From Anaerolineae bacterium (GTDB taxonomy: Bacteria; Chloroflexota; Anaerolineae; JAFGEY01): a stretch of DNA of 41,083 nt. The notes under the pieces are model-generated. The model had not been told where the DNA came from, did no database searches, and worked only from the letters and a program-made list of their open reading frames with translations. Both the position numbers and the translations under genes were made by a program. Within the stretch, counting starts at the first letter, position 1, and each line of letters begins with the position of its first letter. The stretch is from NCBI GenBank assembly GCA_016783145.1, contig JADHXD010000027.1:1-41083 (forward strand), given 5' to 3'. Below, in pieces: positions 5,105-30,040 of this stretch.

Positions 5105-5620
5105 TCAGGCCATACCGGTGAGCACGCCTTTTCGGCGGCCGTATAGATCTCGCAGCCGAGAGATGGTCTCCGTCAAGTCACGGATGGCACCGGTCAGCCC
5201 TTCTCCGTTCTCCACTGCCGCTTGCAGCGAGTCGACGCACGCGGCGATCGCCTCAGACTGGGTGAGCAGATCCTCGTCAAAGGCATAGAGCGCATCAAGC
5301 TCCTCTTCCTTGACCTTGACGGCGTCAAACAAGCCAGAATACCCATACGCAGCCGTGTGCACGGTGTCCGCCAGGGTCTGCAGGCGCCGTCGTGCCGTGC
5401 CAATCTTTTCCACGTTCTCGATGTGCTCGATGCCCAGATTCCCCTGGATCTCTTCGATGTGCCGGCGCTGCTCGGTCAAGACACCATAGATGTGGTCCCG
5501 TAGCAGCTTGTCCGCCTCGCGGCGCATCTCTTTCTCTTTGTATCCCTTGTATCCAGGGATCTTGGCAACAAGCTTCTCAAACCCGCCCATTCCGTCCGCT
5601 ACAACGTCCCGCATATCCAT
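5105..5620 (-). CDS. Helical protein of unknown function, co-transcribed with the SPFH gene
   Basis: 171 residues, apparently all-helical with charged heptad-like stretches (for example KEKEMRREADKLLRDHIYG and LTEQRRHIEEIQG), without Cys clusters, signal peptide or membrane segment. I do not recognise the family. The start at 5620 is fixed by an AAGGAGGT seven bases upstream; longer reading upstream adds an Arg-rich tail with no support. It is the first gene of a two-gene operon with the SPFH/zinc-ribbon protein, so a role as its partner or as a PspA-like effector is plausible inference. A promoter lies about 95 bases upstream. Confidence 0.75.
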   Translation of the reverse strand: MDMRDVVADGMGGFEKLVAKIPGYKGYKEKEMRREADKLLRDHIYGVLTEQRRHIEEIQGNLGIEHIENVEKIGTARRRLQTLADTVHTAAYGYSGLFDAVKVKEEELDALYAFDEDLLTQSEAIAACVDSLQAAVENGEGLTGAIRDLTETISRLRDLYGRRKGVLTGMA

Positions 5621-6630: not shown

Positions 6631-8565
6631 ATGAGTCTGCATCGAACACAGCAACCCAGTGCTCAGGTTGAGAGCAAGGAGCAAGGCTCTCTCGCGCCTG
6701 GCTCGGTCGTCCAGCAGAGATACCAGATCCTTGAGCTCGTCGGCAGCGGAGGCTTTGCCTTTGTGTACAAGGCGCGAGACCTGAGGTTTGAGAAGGCCTC
6801 CAGGATCTGTGCGGTGAAAGAGATGTACAACACCATCACCGATCCCAGCCTGCGCAAGCTAGCCGCGCGAGACTTTGACCGCGAAGCCAACGTGCTCGCT
6901 TCTCTCAACCACGATGCGGTGCCCAGCATCTTTGACTATTTCACCGAGAGCGACCGCATCTATCTGATCATGGAGTTCATCGACGGCCAGGACCTGGAAA
7001 GACTCATCGACTCAAGCCCAGAGCCCGTCGCGCAGAACAAGGTGGTGGATTGGGCCATCCAGATCTGCGACGTGCTGAGCTACTTGCACAGCCACAAGCC
7101 CGAGCCGTACGTCTTTCGCGATCTCAAGCCCTCGAACATCATGCTCAGCCAGCGCAGCAAGATCATGCTCGTGGACTATGGCATCGCCAAGGTGTTCCAG
7201 CGCAACCAGAGAGGGACCATGATCGGCACGGAGGGCTACTCGCCGCCCGAGCAGTATCGAGGCGCTGGAGAGCCGCGGGGCGACCTCTACAGCCTGGGCG
7301 CGACGATGCATCACATGTTGACCAAGCGCGACCCGCGCCTGGAGCCTCCGTTTTCGTTCCACGAACGCCCAATACGAGACATCAACCCCGATGTACCCGA
7401 GATCCTCACGTCGATCATCGACAAACTGCTGGAATACGACGTCGAGCGGAGATTCGGGTCAGCGGCCGAGCTAAAACAGGCTCTGCTGACGCTGACAACG
7501 CCAACCGCACTGCCAGCGCCAACCGCACTGCCAGGGGGACCCACCGTCCCCATTCCCCTGACCTCTGCTGTATCCTATGGACAGACAGGCAACGTGGTTC
7601 CGATATGGGAATTCTCCTGCGAGGACGAGATCGGCTCGTCACCAGTGGTCTCAGATGGGGTCCTATATGTCGGGTCGTTTGACCACAACTTGTATGCTCT
7701 GGATGCCAAGACGGGCGAGTTCATCTGGAAGTATCCAACGGACGACAGCATTTCATCCTCTCCGTGTGTGTGGGAAGACCTGGTCTTGGTCGGTTCCGAG
7801 GACCATATGATGTATGCTATCCAGAAGGGTAGCGGCGGGATCGCATGGTCTGCTCCGACCAAGGATCGCATTCGCGCCTCTCCACGCTGCCACCCACTGG
7901 GGCACGTGTTCTTTGGCTCTGATGACCACTGCTTCTACAACCTGAGCGTGCGCAATGGGCGACAGGTCTGGGCGTATAGCGAGACAGAGGGCCCCATCCG
8001 GTCCTCCGCAGCCTTGTCGGACGACCTCGCCTACTTTGGGTCGGATGACACGAATGTCTATGCGATCAGCATCCAGACCGGAAAACGCAAGTGGAGGTTC
8101 TCGACGAGCCGGCCTGTCATTTCCTCCCCCCTTTTCTATGAGGGACTGCTCTTCTTCGGATCGCTGGACTCGAGCTTCTACGCGGTGGATGCAGTCTCGG
8201 GATGGGCCGTTTGGAGCAGGCGTACACAGAGCTGGATCGTTTCCAACCCGGCCGTCCACGAATCCCTGGGCTTCATCTACATCGGCTCAGGAGATCGAAC
8301 CGTATACGCCTTCGAATACAGCAGAGGGCGCCAGGTCTGGAAGTTTGAGACCGAAGGCCCTATTGGTTCCTCACCGGCGGTGTCTGAAGAAGCGGTGTAC
8401 ATCGGCTCGAGCGATGGATACCTGTACAGCTTGGACGCCCGGACAGGTGAACTGCGGTGGAAGTTTCACGCTGGTAGCCGGATCAACTGCACTCCGATGA
8501 TCTCGAATGACATGGTTTTCGTCGCGTCGATGAACAACCACAAGGTCTTTGGGTTGCTGCTTTAA
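6631..8565 (+). CDS. Ser/Thr protein kinase fused to an eight-repeat PQQ-type propeller
   Basis: 644 residues. Residues about 31-287 are a Hanks-type kinase: glycine loop VGSGGFAFVY, Lys63 in AVKE, FRDLKPSN (Arg163, Asp164, Asn169; the usual His of HRD is Phe), DYG at 182-184 in place of DFG, and SPPE in the activation segment. A Pro/Thr/Ala linker (about 289-310) leads to eight repeats of about 40 residues of the type SSPVVSDGVLYVGSFDHNLY, typical of PQQ/Trp-docking beta-propellers. There is no hydrophobic segment, so kinase and propeller should both be cytoplasmic, unlike most kinases with an outside sensor domain. It heads an operon with a PP2C phosphatase and an FHA protein, which probably form one phosphorylation circuit. 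AAGGA six bases before the ATG supports the start. Confidence 0.95.
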   Translation: MSLHRTQQPSAQVESKEQGSLAPGSVVQQRYQILELVGSGGFAFVYKARDLRFEKASRICAVKEMYNTITDPSLRKLAARDFDREANVLASLNHDAVPSIFDYFTESDRIYLIMEFIDGQDLERLIDSSPEPVAQNKVVDWAIQICDVLSYLHSHKPEPYVFRDLKPSNIMLSQRSKIMLVDYGIAKVFQRNQRGTMIGTEGYSPPEQYRGAGEPRGDLYSLGATMHHMLTKRDPRLEPPFSFHERPIRDINPDVPEILTSIIDKLLEYDVERRFGSAAELKQALLTLTTPTALPAPTALPGGPTVPIPLTSAVSYGQTGNVVPIWEFSCEDEIGSSPVVSDGVLYVGSFDHNLYALDAKTGEFIWKYPTDDSISSSPCVWEDLVLVGSEDHMMYAIQKGSGGIAWSAPTKDRIRASPRCHPLGHVFFGSDDHCFYNLSVRNGRQVWAYSETEGPIRSSAALSDDLAYFGSDDTNVYAISIQTGKRKWRFSTSRPVISSPLFYEGLLFFGSLDSSFYAVDAVSGWAVWSRRTQSWIVSNPAVHESLGFIYIGSGDRTVYAFEYSRGRQVWKFETEGPIGSSPAVSEEAVYIGSSDGYLYSLDARTGELRWKFHAGSRINCTPMISNDMVFVASMNNHKVFGLLL

Positions 8566-9518: not shown

Positions 9519-10997
9519 ATGGATGTGCATCGAGACTACTACCTGGCGCTAGGTGTCAGGCCAGCGGCAACGCAGCCAGAGATCAAGAGAGCCTATCGGG
9601 CTCTGGTACGCCGTTTCCATCCCGATGCCAGTTCGGCACCAGATGCCAGGGAGCGGTTTGAGCAGATCCAGGAAGCGTACGCGCTCCTGAACGACCCGGA
9701 AAAGAGGCGTGCCTACGATCTGTGGAGAGAGCAGGAGGGGCTGGCAAGAAAGCAAGCGGTGGGGCTCAAGCACCTGGTCAGCCACCGCACCCTGCCGCTG
9801 GCGGACGAAGAGCAGATCCTCTATGTGATGGGTCAGATCTCCCCCAGTCCCCATGTCAGGGCACAGCGCCTGCCGTTCAACGTGTGCCTGGTCTTGGACC
9901 GCAGCACCTCGATGCAAGGAGTGCGGCTGCAGCGCACCAAGGACGCGACGAACTTTATCGTGAACTTTTTGGAGGACTCGGACGTTTTCTCCCTTGTGAC
10001 ATTCAGCGATCGGGCAGAGGTCGTCATTCCCGCTCAATCCAAACTCGACAAGGCCTTTGCCCGGGCTCGGGTCAGCACGATCCGCAGTAACGGTGGCACA
10101 GAAATCCTGCAGGGCCTGCTCGCCGGACTGCGCGAGATCGATCGTTGGCATTCCCCGAACATGATCAATCACGTCATCTTGCTGACGGATGGGCAGACCT
10201 ATGGTGGGGAGAGAGAATGCCTGGCCGAGGCTCGAGCCGCGGGCCGTCGACAGATCAGCATCACGACGATGGGGATCGGCCAAGACTGGAATGAGAAACT
10301 GCTGGACGACATCGCTCGCAGCAGTGGCGGTACGTCAACCTACATCGATTCTGCGTCCAAAGTAACCACCTTTTTCCGAGACTGTGTCCAGACTCTCGCC
10401 ATGATCGTGGCACGAGACCTAGAGCTGACCGTGCGCCTCCCCGAGGGCATCCGCATCCAGGAAGCGTTTCGGGTCTCTCCCCAACTGGAGCAGTTGCCTG
10501 TGGATCGCGGCGTGATCCGTCTCGGGCAGCTCAGCGCAAAGCAGCCGTGCTCGTTCCTCATCGAGTTTCTGATCCACCCGGATGCTGCCGGCCCTCTGCG
10601 GGTCGCACAGCTCGAGCTGACGGCCGATGCGCCTGTGGCAGAGCAGCACAGTCAACTGATCAAGCAAGACATCGTGATCCAGATCGAAAAAGACCTGCCC
10701 GGTCTGGAGCCTGTGCCGCCGATCATCACCACCACACTGGGCAAGCTGTCCATCTTTCGAATGCAAGAAAAGACAATGAGGGATCTGGAAAGAGGTGCCG
10801 TGGAGCGAGCTAGCCAGCGACTGGAGACGATGGCCACACGCCTGCTGAACATCGGCGAAAACGAACTGGCCAAAGCTGCATTGCTGGAAGCAGGTCGACT
10901 GGCTCGAACGGGACAGGTCTCGCCAGAAGGTCGGAAGAGGATTCGCTACGGTACACGAGGTCTGTCCATCCTGCCCAAGGAGGTGGGCCGTGACTAG
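9519..10997 (+). CDS. J-domain/von Willebrand factor A fusion protein
   Basis: 492 residues. Residues 5-70 are a DnaJ J-domain with the diagnostic His34-Pro35-Asp36. Residues about 119-320 are a von Willebrand A domain with an intact metal site: Asp127-x-Ser129-x-Ser131, Thr194 and Asp224 in LLTDG. The rest (about 335-492) is a beta-rich segment and a helical tail. J-domains stimulate DnaK-type chaperones, and vWA domains mediate metal-dependent protein binding, so the protein may couple a chaperone to a bound partner; this is inference. The start at 9519 has GAGAG six bases upstream and places the J-domain at the N-terminus; an upstream in-frame start inside the phosphatase gene is unlikely. 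The end overlaps the FHA gene by eight bases. Confidence 0.9.
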   Translation: MDVHRDYYLALGVRPAATQPEIKRAYRALVRRFHPDASSAPDARERFEQIQEAYALLNDPEKRRAYDLWREQEGLARKQAVGLKHLVSHRTLPLADEEQILYVMGQISPSPHVRAQRLPFNVCLVLDRSTSMQGVRLQRTKDATNFIVNFLEDSDVFSLVTFSDRAEVVIPAQSKLDKAFARARVSTIRSNGGTEILQGLLAGLREIDRWHSPNMINHVILLTDGQTYGGERECLAEARAAGRRQISITTMGIGQDWNEKLLDDIARSSGGTSTYIDSASKVTTFFRDCVQTLAMIVARDLELTVRLPEGIRIQEAFRVSPQLEQLPVDRGVIRLGQLSAKQPCSFLIEFLIHPDAAGPLRVAQLELTADAPVAEQHSQLIKQDIVIQIEKDLPGLEPVPPIITTTLGKLSIFRMQEKTMRDLERGAVERASQRLETMATRLLNIGENELAKAALLEAGRLARTGQVSPEGRKRIRYGTRGLSILPKEVGRD

Positions 10998-24544: not shown

Positions 24545-27400
24545 CTATACAGCGACCTGGGCCTGCCTCTGGCGCTGTGCCTGTCGCAGCAGAATCGCCT
24601 TGTGGATCTCGGCGGTCACTGCCGGCACCAGCATCAGTGGGAACACCACCAGCCAGTCGTTCAGGCTTAGGGGCAGATTCCCAAAGATGGTTGTATTCAA
24701 CCCGGGAACGTAGACCGTCGCCAGCAGCACAAGCAGCGACAGCAGGACGGCCCACTGCATCCACTTGTTGCTGAAAAGGCCGACCGCGAACACTGGATAC
24801 CGCTCCGACCGCGCCGTATACGCCCGGAACAGCTCGGAGGCCGAAAGGGTGACAAAGGCCATCGTCTGCGCGTGCCGGATATCCTCGAACCGAGCCATCC
24901 CGATGTAGAACGCAGCCAGCACGGCCCCTGCAATGGCAATCATCTGCACGACCGTCCCCCAGACCATCTCTCCATTGATGATCGGCTCGTTGACCGGACG
25001 GGGCTCAAGATCCATGATGTCCGGATCGCCTTTCTCCATTCCCAGCGCCAGAGCTGGCGCTCCGTCCGTGACCAGATTGAGGACCAGCAACTGGAGGGCA
25101 GTCAGAGGCAATGGCCAGTTGGCGATCATCGCCACAAAGAGGATCATGATCTCGCCCATGTTGCAGGAAAGGAGATAGTAGACGAACTTGCGGATGTTGG
25201 AAAAGATGACCCGTCCCTCCTCCACCGCTGAGACAATGGAGGCATAGTTGTCATCCATAAGCACCATATCGGCCGTTTCCTTGGATACGTCTGTTCCGGT
25301 GATGCCCATCGCCACACCGATGCTGGCTCGCTTGAGGGCCGGTGCATCGTTGACCCCATCTCCTGTCATAGCCACGATGTGCCCTCGCCGCTTGTGGGCA
25401 TCCACAATGCGCACCTTGTGCTCAGGAGAGACACGCGCATAGACAACCACGTCATCCACCATCTCGGCCAGTTCCTCATCGGAGACCTGGTCCAGATCTC
25501 TCCCCGAGAGGACGTGTCCCTCGATCGCGTCGTCCCTGCGCAGCAGCTCCAGTTCCTTGGCGATCGCCACGGCCGTGTCCTGATAGTCTCCCGTGACCAT
25601 CGCCGTTTTGATCCCTGCGTGCTTGGCCTTGGCGATGGCAGCACGCACCTCAGGCCTGGCGGGGTCGATCATACCTGCCAGGCCAATAAAGATCAGGTCT
25701 CGCTCGATGAGCTCTGGGGTCGGCTTGTCCGGCAGCTCATCCAGCGGGCGATAGGCAGCGCCCAGCACTCGGAGCGCGTTTGAGGCCAGTTCGTGATTGA
25801 CCTCCAGAACACGTGCTCGCCGCTCTGCGGTCATCGGATAGACCTGCCCGTCCACATAGATCTGGTGGCAGAGCTCAACCATGAGATCGGGCGCACCTTT
25901 GACATAGGCTTCGTGTGAGCCATCTTCCATCCGATGGATCGTCGTCATCCGCTTGCGCCCCGAATCGAAAGGCACTTCATCCACCCTGGGATACCGAGCC
26001 TCCATCTCTGCCTTCCACATCCCCGCCTTGCCCGCCAGAACCACCAGTGCGCCCTCGGTCGGATCGCCGATCATCTGCCACGCTTCTTCTTGATCGCCGC
26101 TGTTCTCATCCGTGCGCTCGATCCGGGCATCATTGCACAGCAACGACACCAAGCCCAGCTTGGCCAATCCACGGTAAGCATCTGGCGTGACGCTGTTTCC
26201 GTTCTCACTGAACTCGCCCGCGGGAGTATAGCCGCGACCGCTGACCTGCATCAGCGTATCGTCCGCATACGCCGCGGTCACGGTCATCTGGTTCTGGGTG
26301 AGCGTTCCTGTCTTGTCGGAGCAAATGGCAGTGGCCGAGCCGAGCGTCTCTACCGCGGGCAGCCGGCGGATCAGCACGTTTCGGCGAACCATCTCCTGCA
26401 TGCCCAGAGCCAGGCAGATGGTCACCACAGCGGGCAGCCCCTCCGGTACCGCCGCAATCGCCAGGCTGACGGCAATCATGAACATCTCGATCAAGGTCTC
26501 TACCGAAGCCGCAAGGTATTCGCGCGGACCCGCCGAAAAGATCAAGGACAGATCCGTATCGCGCACGATGCCAATGAGGCCCACAAAGCCGCACACGACC
26601 AACGCCGCGATGCCCAGCCACTTGCCTAGCTGCTCGAGTTTGATCTGCAGGGGCGTGAGATCCTCTCCGGCCTCCTGGATCATCTCGGCGATCTTGCCGA
26701 TCTCGGTTTTCATCCCAGTGGCGACCACGATCCCCCGTCCGCGTCCGTAGGTGACGATGGTGCTCATATATCCGCAGTTCCGGCGATCTCCCAGGCCGGC
26801 GTCCTCGACCACGGTCTGGGAGGCGAACTTTTCCACTGGCACGGATTCGCCGGTCAGTGACGCCTCCTCGATGCGCAGATTAAAGCTCTCGACGAGACGC
26901 ACATCGGAAGGCACATAGTTACCGGTCTCCAGGATCACCAGGTCGCCTGGAACCAGATCGGCGGCGGAGATGGTCTCTTGGCGCCCGTCGCGAATCACCG
27001 TCGCGTTCGGCGCCGACATCTCCTTCAAGGCCGCCAGCGCTTGCTCGGCCCGCCCCTCCTGCACCAACCCCAGAATCGCGTTGAGGACCACGATGGCCAT
27101 GATCGCGCTGGCATCGATGAACTCGGTCATCTCACCGGTTTTGTTGAATTGGCTCCAGCCAATGACTGCCGAGATGATGGCCGAGGCGATCAGGATCAGC
27201 ACCAGGAACTGATTGAGCTGATCCCACAGACGTGAGAGAAAGCTCGGACGAGCCTGCTCGGTCAGAGCGTTCGGACCAACCCGTGCCAGCCTCTCCGCAG
27301 CGTCGGCAGCCGCGAGACCTTTCCGCAGATCGACGTGCAGCTTGCTTGCCGTTTCGTCAATGGACAGCGTATGCCATTTGTGAGTTTCGTTTGCTTCCAT
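24545..27400 (-). CDS. SERCA/PMCA-type (P2) calcium-transporting P-type ATPase
   Basis: 951 residues, full length for the class. Phosphorylated Asp362 in [15 protein letters not shown] in the actuator domain, KGAPD in the nucleotide domain, and [11 protein letters not shown]. Residues matching the two calcium sites of SERCA are present: PEGLP in helix M4, CNMGE in M5, [13 protein letters not shown] in M6 and SASELFRAY in M8. It should export Ca2+ (Mn2+ is an alternative) from the cytoplasm, driven by ATP. Start ATG at 27400. It has its own promoter at 27492 but lies in line with the DUF211 and VIT1-like genes, so it may also be read from their promoter. Confidence 0.95.
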
Positions 27401-27491: not shown

Positions 27492-27519
27492 ATTATACCA
27501 CAAGCTACACCCAGTGCAA
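27492..27519 (-). promoter_or_regulatory. Promoter of the calcium ATPase gene
   Basis: On the minus strand TTGCAC (27519-27514), a 16-base spacer and a perfect TATAAT (27497-27492), located right after the stop of the VIT1-like gene. The leader is about 85 bases. Confidence 0.6.
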
Positions 27520-27521
27520 CC

Positions 27522-28109
27522 CTACTCGAGCAGGTAGCTCAGCGCGATCGAAACTGCGCCAGCGATAACCGTCTTGAGGCCCGATACGATCAGGTTCTCT
27601 TTCGAGATGTGCCCCAGAAAAAGGCCGAGCCCAAAGAGCGTCATCAAGGCCATTCCGATCGACGCATAGTACCCCCACTCAATGGAAGGAAGCATCTGGA
27701 TCACAAAGAAGGGCAGCAGGACCAGGAGCGAAGCGAGAAAAGGTGACAGTCCATCGACAACGGCAACGACGACTGCTGCCATCCGAGACGCCTTCCCGAT
27801 CTTGGTATCCTGGAGATCGACCAACGTCTGCTTTTCCAGTTCGTCGATCTCGCGACGGCGCTCCGCAGACTCGGTGAGATAAGAGCCCCACAAGCCCGAG
27901 ATCCCCATTGCCAGAGAGGTGGACAATCCGGTGACCACGATCACTCGCGGCTCACGGACTCTGGCCATATAGTTGCCCATCAACACGCCAATCATCGTCA
28001 GCACACCGTCAAAGGCGTTCATGGCAAAGTACCGGCGCGCCATTTCGCCCACATCGGCGATCTCGCTGTACTCTAGCCATTTCCGGAACTGCATACGCAG
28101 CGGGGTCAT
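27522..28109 (-). CDS. VIT1/CCC1-like membrane protein (TIGR00267 type)
   Basis: 195 residues resembling the VIT1/CCC1 iron/manganese transporter family in its TIGR00267 branch: FAMNAFDGVLTMIGVLMG in the first helix, LSTSLAMGISGLWGSYLTE in the second, a charged loop (ERRREIDELEKQTL) and three further helices. Five membrane segments in all. The transported ion is not known for this branch; Fe2+ or Mn2+ are the family substrates. It starts 16 bases after the DUF211 gene, in one operon with it. Confidence 0.8.
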   Translation of the reverse strand: MTPLRMQFRKWLEYSEIADVGEMARRYFAMNAFDGVLTMIGVLMGNYMARVREPRVIVVTGLSTSLAMGISGLWGSYLTESAERRREIDELEKQTLVDLQDTKIGKASRMAAVVVAVVDGLSPFLASLLVLLPFFVIQMLPSIEWGYYASIGMALMTLFGLGLFLGHISKENLIVSGLKTVIAGAVSIALSYLLE

Positions 28110-28125
28110 ACTGATCTACCTTATT

Positions 28126-28425
28126 CTATCCCTGGTAAGGATCTTGGGGTGTGCTGGCATCATCTATGATGATCTTGCCAGCCACCACCTCATCTATCGA
28201 GTGAATCGCACCGCCGTTGTCGGCGATAATCGAGCTGATCGCATCAAAGCCAAGGTTACTGCCCTCGATCGTGATTTTGGCGTTCTCTACCTTGCGGTCC
28301 ATCTCGTAGATGCTGATATTGACCGCCTCCACTCCGGGCAGCTCGCTCAAGAGCTGCGCCAGCTCGATAATCGTCGGGTCATGTGGCTTCAGTGTATCTA
28401 GCACCAGCCGCCGAATCCGTCCCAT
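28126..28425 (-). CDS. DUF211-family protein
   Basis: 99 residues, matching DUF211 over its whole length: MGRIRRLVLDTLKPHDP, LSELPGVEAVNISIYEMD, ITIEGSNLGFDAI and GGAIHSIDEVVAGK. The family is small, ferredoxin-like in fold and mostly known from archaea; its function is unknown. The ATG at 28425 is fixed by AGAAGG five bases upstream. It is the first gene of an operon with a VIT1-like protein and a calcium ATPase further on, which suggests a role in metal homeostasis. A terminator lies directly upstream of its ribosome binding site. Confidence 0.9.
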   Translation of the reverse strand: MGRIRRLVLDTLKPHDPTIIELAQLLSELPGVEAVNISIYEMDRKVENAKITIEGSNLGFDAISSIIADNGGAIHSIDEVVAGKIIIDDASTPQDPYQG

Positions 28426-28592
28426 GTTGTCCTTCTCCTCTCCAACAAAAAACAGCAAAAGTAGCAGCGTCCATCCCGTCGGGATCGGCACCGCTACCTT
28501 TGCTGCATTACTACACTCACGTAATGACTACTATCAGGGCCAGGGTCCGAGTCTTGCTCGCTCATTACCTTCGTTTCAAGAATCGCCAATCT
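28426..28592 (-). promoter_or_regulatory. Attenuator-like leader of the DUF211 operon (riboswitch candidate)
   Basis: About 165 bases between the predicted transcription start and the DUF211 ATG. On the minus strand segment 1 GTAATGA (28568-28562) can pair with segment 2 TCATTAC (28527-28521), enclosing a small CGAG-CAAGA-CTCG hairpin and a CCCTGGCCC stretch. Segment 2 can instead pair with segment 3 GTAATG (28511-28506), which directly abuts the terminator stem. The two pairings exclude each other. No match to a riboswitch class known to me was found; the motifs of yybP-ykoY (Mn2+), NiCo, fluoride and T-box leaders are not evident. Confidence 0.6.
28447..28505 (-). terminator. Intrinsic terminator inside the DUF211 leader
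   Basis: On the minus strand CAGCAAAG pairs with TTTTGCTG, then GTAGC with GCTAC and further inner pairs up to ATCCC-GAC-GGGAT; two mismatches interrupt the stem. TTTTTT follows directly. The terminator ends about seven bases before the ribosome binding site of DUF211, so transcription must read through it for the operon to be expressed. Confidence 0.8.
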
Positions 28593-28598
28593 ACTCAT

Positions 28599-28627
28599 AC
28601 TATACCAGCATTGCCCAAACTTGTCAA
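28599..28627 (-). promoter_or_regulatory. Promoter of the DUF211/VIT1-like operon
   Basis: On the minus strand a perfect TTGACA (28627-28622), a 17-base spacer and TATAGT (28604-28599). The region 28628-28820 between this and the next promoter shows no gene. Confidence 0.8.
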
Positions 28628-28821: not shown

Positions 28822-28850
28822 TTGACAGGGATACTGCTCCGATGTATACT
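28822..28850 (+). promoter_or_regulatory. Promoter of the Gfo/Idh/MocA oxidoreductase gene
   Basis: A perfect TTGACA (28822-28827), a 17-base spacer and TATACT (28845-28850). Transcription should start near 28857, 50 bases before the ATG. Confidence 0.8.
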
Positions 28851-28906: not shown

Positions 28907-30040
28907 ATGGACGTCGTACGATTCGGAATCATAGGTGTTGGAGGAATGGGCAACGGGCATGCGCGCAATATGCCCCGAATCACCGAGGCCAGGCTGACCG
29001 CGGTGTGCGACACTTCCCCAGCGGCTCTTGAGGCGGCAAGGGACGCCTACGAGGTGCCCGACTTTGATACGCACATAGAACTCCTCGACAGTGGACTGGT
29101 GGACGCAGTCCTCATTGCCACGCCGCACTACTTTCACCCGCCTATCGCCTTCGACGCGATGCGCAGGGGGATCCACGTGATCAGCGAAAAGCCGATGGCG
29201 GTCACCGTGTCTGGGGCCGACGCGATGATCGAGGCGGCGCGAGAGACGGGCGTCGTATTTGCAGTGATGTTTCAGCAGAGAGCCAAGCCGATCCATCAGG
29301 CAGCCAAGAGACTGGTCGATGAGGGACGGTTGGGTCCGATCTACCGCACGTCGCTGGTCGATGCACACTTTCGCAGCCAGGCATACTATGACTCCGCAAG
29401 CTGGCGAGCGACGTGGAAGGGGGAGGGTGGCGGAGTGCTGCTCAACCAAGCGCCGCACGGCATGGACATCTTTACCTGGCTGGGTGGTACGCCCTCACGA
29501 GTGAATGCCCACGTATCTACTTTCCAGCACCACATCGAGGTAGAGGACGAAGCCGCTGCTCTGCTCGAGTACCCGAACGGGGCAATCGGCTATATCCTGG
29601 AAACGGTGAACGAAGTCCCGACGGGGATGCGCCTTGAGCTCTGTGGAGAGAAGGGCAAGCTGCTCTTGGACGACCAGGGATTGCGCTTCTGGGAGGTCAA
29701 AGAGGGCGTGCGCGCCTTTTCCGACTGCACCGACCAGATGTGGGGCCGGCCTGAGGTGATACCGATCGAGATACCGGTCGAATCCCGTAGGACCGGTCAC
29801 GCGGATATCGTGCGCAACGTGGCCCGGGCGATCCTGTATGGCGACCCGTTGATCTCTCCCGGCAGCGAAGCACTGTCCAGCCTGGAACTAGCGGATGCGA
29901 TGCTGCTCTCGGGACACAGAGCCAAGCCGGTGGACATTCCGCTGGACCGCGGCGAGTATGACGCGTTCATCGCCGAGATGCAGGCCAAGTCCAAGGACAA
30001 GGTCGTCGAGGACAAGCGGATCACAGACCCCAACCACTGA
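28907..30040 (+). CDS. Gfo/Idh/MocA-family NAD(P)-dependent oxidoreductase
   Basis: 377 residues. The N-terminal Rossmann fold shows GIIGVGGMGNGHARN, and the family lysine is in ISEKPMAVT. The substrate domain carries GGGVLLNQAPHGMDIFTWLGG, where the His in PHGMD is the usual catalytic or ligand position. Members oxidise or reduce sugars, inositols and related polyols. The substrate is not predictable. It is a single-gene transcript with its own promoter and a long perfect hairpin 10 bases after the stop. Confidence 0.92.
   Translation: MDVVRFGIIGVGGMGNGHARNMPRITEARLTAVCDTSPAALEAARDAYEVPDFDTHIELLDSGLVDAVLIATPHYFHPPIAFDAMRRGIHVISEKPMAVTVSGADAMIEAARETGVVFAVMFQQRAKPIHQAAKRLVDEGRLGPIYRTSLVDAHFRSQAYYDSASWRATWKGEGGGVLLNQAPHGMDIFTWLGGTPSRVNAHVSTFQHHIEVEDEAAALLEYPNGAIGYILETVNEVPTGMRLELCGEKGKLLLDDQGLRFWEVKEGVRAFSDCTDQMWGRPEVIPIEIPVESRRTGHADIVRNVARAILYGDPLISPGSEALSSLELADAMLLSGHRAKPVDIPLDRGEYDAFIAEMQAKSKDKVVEDKRITDPNH

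Follow-up and report, generated by a model that had tools for sequence, protein, structure and literature searches.

A DUF211 gene and the VIT1-like gene behind it, located in a 41,083-nucleotide stretch of DNA from contig 217 of an Anaerolineae-type metagenome assembly (the window), are probably gated by premature termination of transcription. We lean toward a default-off transcription attenuator ahead of the two genes as the explanation. The sequence places a predicted promoter, an unstructured leader and a predicted terminator in front of DUF211, beside a divergent upstream gene and with no space for a second promoter; termination in the cell and regulated read-through are what we infer. 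RNA polymerase would start near position 28592, transcribe about 140 nt and meet the strong terminator before the DUF211 ribosome site, and DUF211 and the VIT1-like gene would be expressed from read-through transcripts only. The terminator would be overridden by an external machine acting on the unstructured leader or on the terminator 5' arm. Judged from its sequence, the leader appears to be a genuine, terminator-gated new instance of an ordinary kind of regulatory element. The features are collected in Table 1.

Table 1. Features of the DUF211 region, in coordinates of the window.
Feature	Position	Strand	Description	Evidence
Promoter	28599..28627	-	TTGACA, 17-nt spacer, TATAGT; TG before the -10	11/12 consensus match
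Leader	28506..28592	-	87 nt, predicted start to terminator; poorly structured	folding compared with shuffles
Segment GUAAUGA	28562..28568	-	pairs with 28521-28527	sequence, folding
Possible leader ORF	28494..28565	-	MSEQDSDPGPDSSHYVSVVMQQR; ATG to TAG, 23 codons	sequence
Segment UCAUUAC	28521..28527	-	strand common to both weak alternative pairings	dyad unique in genome
Segment GUAAUG	28506..28511	-	pairs with CAUUAC, 28521-28526	sequence, folding
Intrinsic terminator	28447..28505	-	24-pair interrupted hairpin and U6	energy, shuffles
Shine-Dalgarno region of DUF211	28431..28443	-	GGAGAGGAGAAGG	sequence
DUF211 gene	28126..28425	-	99 aa; ATG at 28425	PF02680, E 1.6e-34
VIT1-like membrane protein	27522..28109	-	195 aa	PF01988; TIGR00267 below cut-off
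Candidate separate ATPase promoter	27492..27519	-	TTGCAC, 16-nt spacer, TATAAT; TG before the -10	sequence, by eye
Type IIA Ca2+-type P-ATPase	24545..27400	-	951 aa	best NCBIfam TIGR01522, 707 bits; cut-off 798 not reached

The consensus promoter and the long interrupted terminator stem of the original prediction, which had been made from the sequence alone, were both borne out. TTGACA lies at 28627-28622 and TATAGT at 28604-28599; the transcription start is predicted at about 28592, a position inferred from the -10 element, and the terminator begins about 90 nt past it. As expected of an intrinsic terminator, a stable hairpin (C28505-G28453) passes directly into a U-rich run (U6, 28452-28447), and the DUF211 Shine-Dalgarno sequence begins just after the end of this run. 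The hairpin has a folding energy of -37.1 kcal/mol (z -7.8 to -8.0), which was reached by none of the shuffled sequences (0/500 and 0/200), and no stronger combination of hairpin and T run occurs anywhere in the window, whichever strand is read.

The next gene upstream encodes a Gfo/Idh/MocA oxidoreductase; it starts at 28907 and has its own promoter at 28822-28850. Because this gene is divergent, the terminator does not lie behind it. The promoter scan found no second promoter for DUF211, and the stretch from the U run to the start codon is too short to fit one. With a divergent upstream gene and no space for a second promoter, the DUF211 and VIT1-like genes should therefore be transcribed through the terminator; as the sequence reads, the polymerase arrives at DUF211 only by read-through, unless a transcript begins within the stem. 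A terminator that lies between a promoter (28627-28599) and its first gene, and that serves no gene upstream, is the general layout of a transcription attenuator, as the original prediction had recognised. The promoter's consensus match and TG, the strength of the terminator, and the divergent neighbour with its own promoter all argue for the attenuator.

Measured against a rough background, a terminator shortly before the start codon is an uncommon arrangement in the source genome. A terminator-like hairpin, even one weaker than that before DUF211, was found 15-75 nt before the start of just 4 of 401 genes in sampled contigs (0.54 Mb), which were annotated by a simple gene caller that missed the DUF211 start itself; this rarity also favors the attenuator. 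Hairpins with a T run shortly before a start codon occur in the same genome at loci L085 (minus strand, 8126-8163), L098 (minus strand, 10697-10750) and L074 (plus strand, 776-823), and none of the three had an Rfam match. Locus L083, also of this genome (minus strand of contig 120, about 5144-5260), contains a gene that was judged by eye from its start to be Ca2+/cation exchanger-like. The gene has a divergent neighbour and a TATACT -10 element immediately followed by a hairpin, and an inverted repeat of 10 perfectly matched bp (GTCGTGGTAT...ATACCACGAC) spans both the -10 and the hairpin.

The leader folds less well than shuffled sequences do. Its energy is -11.5 kcal/mol against a shuffle mean of -17.5 to -17.7 (z +2.1 to +2.2), and 499/500 and 199/200 shuffles were at least as stable. 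Such poor folding suits access by a ribosome or a protein. Two mutually exclusive pairings had been proposed among three leader segments; the segments are complementary as described, but the pairings are weak, and neither of them extends into the terminator stem. The pairing GUAAUGA(28568-28562)/UCAUUAC(28527-28521) has -6.7 kcal/mol and was matched in stability by 154/200 shuffles, and CAUUAC(28526-28521)/GUAAUG(28511-28506) has -3.6 kcal/mol (33/500 and 12/200 shuffles as stable). A competition between 7 and 6 strict Watson-Crick pairs was found in none of 1000 shuffles, and in 361 of 1000 when G-U pairs were allowed. A 6-mer present three times in 87 nt occurred in 59/5000 shuffles and in 97 of 1414 real 87-nt segments of the window. 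The CATTAC-N9-GTAATG dyad was considered as a DNA operator and set aside; it is unique in the genome and thus has no regulon support.

The original prediction could name no strand that clearly invades the terminator stem. In our folding, no antiterminator fold was better than shuffles. This held for the nascent leader at the stage when the 3' arm is yet to be transcribed (z +0.6) and for the nascent leader up to 28480, where 361/500 shuffles were at least as stable, or 686/1000 when the leader part alone was shuffled. Pairing of GAUUGGC (28591-28585) with GCCGAUC appeared in the nascent fold, but was rejected as no better than shuffles. These results weigh against the attenuator; the requirement for an alternative fold does not apply to attenuators that are blocked by a protein or a ribosome.

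Override by an outside machine is most likely, in preference to a small-molecule or ion aptamer. Within the attenuator reading, a ribosome on the short leader ORF is the best candidate, and a tentative one: a ribosome finishing the 23 codons would cover the terminator 5' arm, and the polymerase would pass. The ORF's stop (28494) lies within this arm, and with an unstructured leader before it a ribosome could cover the arm and permit read-through; the poor folding and the position of the stop are points in favor of the attenuator. On the other side, the ORF has a poor ribosome site, with AAGG just 2 nt before the ATG (by eye), and thus falls short of the translatable start expected for a leader peptide; ATG ORFs of at least 20 codons that end in the terminator also arise by chance in 5% of shuffled leaders. 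The predicted peptide is acidic- and proline-rich near its start (MSEQDSDPGP). In Salmonella, where a short ORF exerts control over an Mg2+ transporter, acidic residues have been reported to destabilise ribosomes on that ORF (PMC8092293); for the peptide considered here this parallel is only a lead. Otherwise, an RNA-binding protein would override the terminator; besides the ribosome, the data are compatible with such a protein or with simple leakage.

No relative of the leader was recovered. The leader matched no Rfam family at gathering scores, and at E values up to 10 gave only chance matches far below threshold; a hit to a known family, which the original prediction had named as evidence against itself, did not occur. 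BLAST against 60 relatives returned the self match only. A covariance model of the leader, built from this single sequence and limited in reach, found no leader relative in 47 homologous DUF211 loci, 396 Anaerolineae genomes or 400 Chloroflexota genomes (the two genome samples partly overlap and come to about 800 together), the nearest of which share only the class with the source of the window. The genomes contained terminator-hairpin look-alikes only: the outside matches lay mainly over the terminator hairpin and beside unrelated genes, and the best of them (28.8 bits), flanked by a superoxide dismutase-like gene and a transporter gene, was discarded. Among genomes that share the class at closest, the attenuator thus has no conservation in its favor, and the same outcome of the covariance search that the original prediction had suggested counts against a riboswitch.

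The DUF211 homologues were gathered from Anaerolineae. Many of them lie behind unrelated genes (by eye, methyltransferase-like and sugar-nucleotide-like) and have no leader. Terminators precede 4 of 47 homologues and 10 of 277 other genes; the lack of a significant enrichment (p 0.13) counts against the attenuator. In its favor, the DUF211 gene of locus L014, whose genome belongs to the class but is distant, is preceded by TTGACA-16-TATAAT, a leader and a terminator, with about 35 nt to the ATG; the order is that of the window, and the sequence is unrelated. Against the attenuator, terminators are frequent near other genes in the L014 genome. Locus L055 has a weaker version of the arrangement, with an ATPase gene directly upstream to which the hairpin could belong as terminator. 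The DUF211 gene of locus L046 is preceded, at a distance of about 60 nt, by a long near-perfect hairpin (GGTATATGTGGGGGTGCGGG, about 20 bp); the hairpin is absent from the near relative L045, and from this comparison looks as if it had been inserted.

Read-through could also be constant. A leaky terminator that does not switch, and that holds operon activity at a fixed low fraction of promoter activity, would agree with the failure to find an antiterminator, an aptamer or conservation, and with the few other genes of this genome that have a hairpin between promoter and start codon. However, a stem of -37 kcal/mol followed by U6 should terminate nearly fully, and a weaker promoter would serve equally; we think such a damper unlikely. 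It is improbable that the region encodes a small RNA (about 146 nt) between a promoter and a terminator that both belong to it, and that DUF211 transcripts arise by read-through or begin at an unseen start in the stem. A strong promoter and a strong terminator about 140 nt apart would suit such a gene, but no second promoter was found, the U run stands directly before the DUF211 ribosome site, the 87 nt are little structured, and no relatives were detected.

The original prediction took the neighbouring genes to point to a metal ion as signal. Solved structures that resemble the DUF211 product are MTH889-like (2raq, 3bpd, 2x3d). The VIT1-like gene follows DUF211 after 16 nt and adjoins it in 39 of 52 loci, whereas an ATPase gene, in the window 121 nt beyond the VIT1-like gene, is near DUF211 in only 3 of 52 (window included; several of the loci are short in both counts). 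About 90 nt ahead of the ATPase start lies a candidate separate promoter, which scored below the threshold of the promoter scan and was identified by eye. This candidate promoter weakens the metal inference, and together with the rarity of the ATPase near DUF211 it makes the link between leader and calcium thin. DUF211 and ATPase genes are neighbours in other Anaerolineae too, in a different order; at both L055 and L050, DUF211 directly follows a Ca2+-type P-ATPase gene that has the same orientation.

We give little credence to a lineage-specific attenuator that responds to Ca2+ (or Mn2+/Fe2+), with a small aptamer, the acidic leader peptide (EQDSDPGPD) or a protein, for instance DUF211 itself, as the mediator; if true, control of DUF211-VIT1 termination by Ca2+ (or Mn2+/Fe2+) would be an unreported class of divalent-cation attenuation. 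A metal-ion riboswitch, in which 28592-28506 would form an aptamer whose bound form prevents the terminator, we regard as quite improbable. The layout, the ion transport gene families, and the existence of exclusive pairings that are rare in shuffles in their strict Watson-Crick form would fit it. Against this, 499 of 500 shuffles were at least as stable as the leader, the leader has no Rfam match and no relative in the 396 Anaerolineae genomes, 400 Chloroflexota genomes and 47 DUF211 loci, neither pairing reaches the terminator, and the ATPase has its own candidate promoter. A new riboswitch class would be expected to have a conserved, covarying aptamer and a stable domain before the terminator; neither was found, the former among class-level relatives. 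The riboswitch and its metal signal are thus unsupported. It is very improbable that the hairpin is incidental to a coding region, with translation from GTG 28491 extending DUF211 by MPIPTGWTLLLLLFFVGEEKDN: the frame is open from 28491 into DUF211 and AAAGG 5 nt before the GTG is a fair ribosome site, but most of the homologous loci that were read start with M-G-x-x-R-R-L-V-L-D behind their own Shine-Dalgarno sequence, as at 28425, no other hairpin of the window comes near this one in strength, and the open frame through the terminator (28491-28425, minus strand) is probably due to chance.

DUF211 is an uncharacterised family, and judged by titles and abstracts in the library that was searched, we found no literature on its function or regulation. 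A terminator gate would give a handle on its signal, and a condition that raises read-through would reveal the stimulus to which the operon answers. For the present, the finding amounts to one more attenuator-type leader.

Leader-peptide attenuators, of the trp type or as in Salmonella mgtCBRU with mgtM and mgtP (PMC8092293), resemble the window with its promoter, possible short leader ORF and probable attenuation before the first gene, and the Salmonella system also shares the ion-transporter genes. In contrast to these, the ORF in the window lacks a run of control codons and a good ribosome site, and the leader has no demonstrable antiterminator and no conservation among class-level relatives. 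The yybP-ykoY Mn2+ riboswitch, which precedes nearly all screened bacterial UPF0016 cation-transporter genes (PMC7380456), resembles the window in that a leader stands ahead of cation-transport genes; however, the leader in the window is unstructured, has no Rfam match, and precedes a different first gene. With intrinsic (Rho-independent) terminators the window shares a stable hairpin that is directly followed by U6, but here the terminator separates a promoter from its first gene, instead of following a gene.
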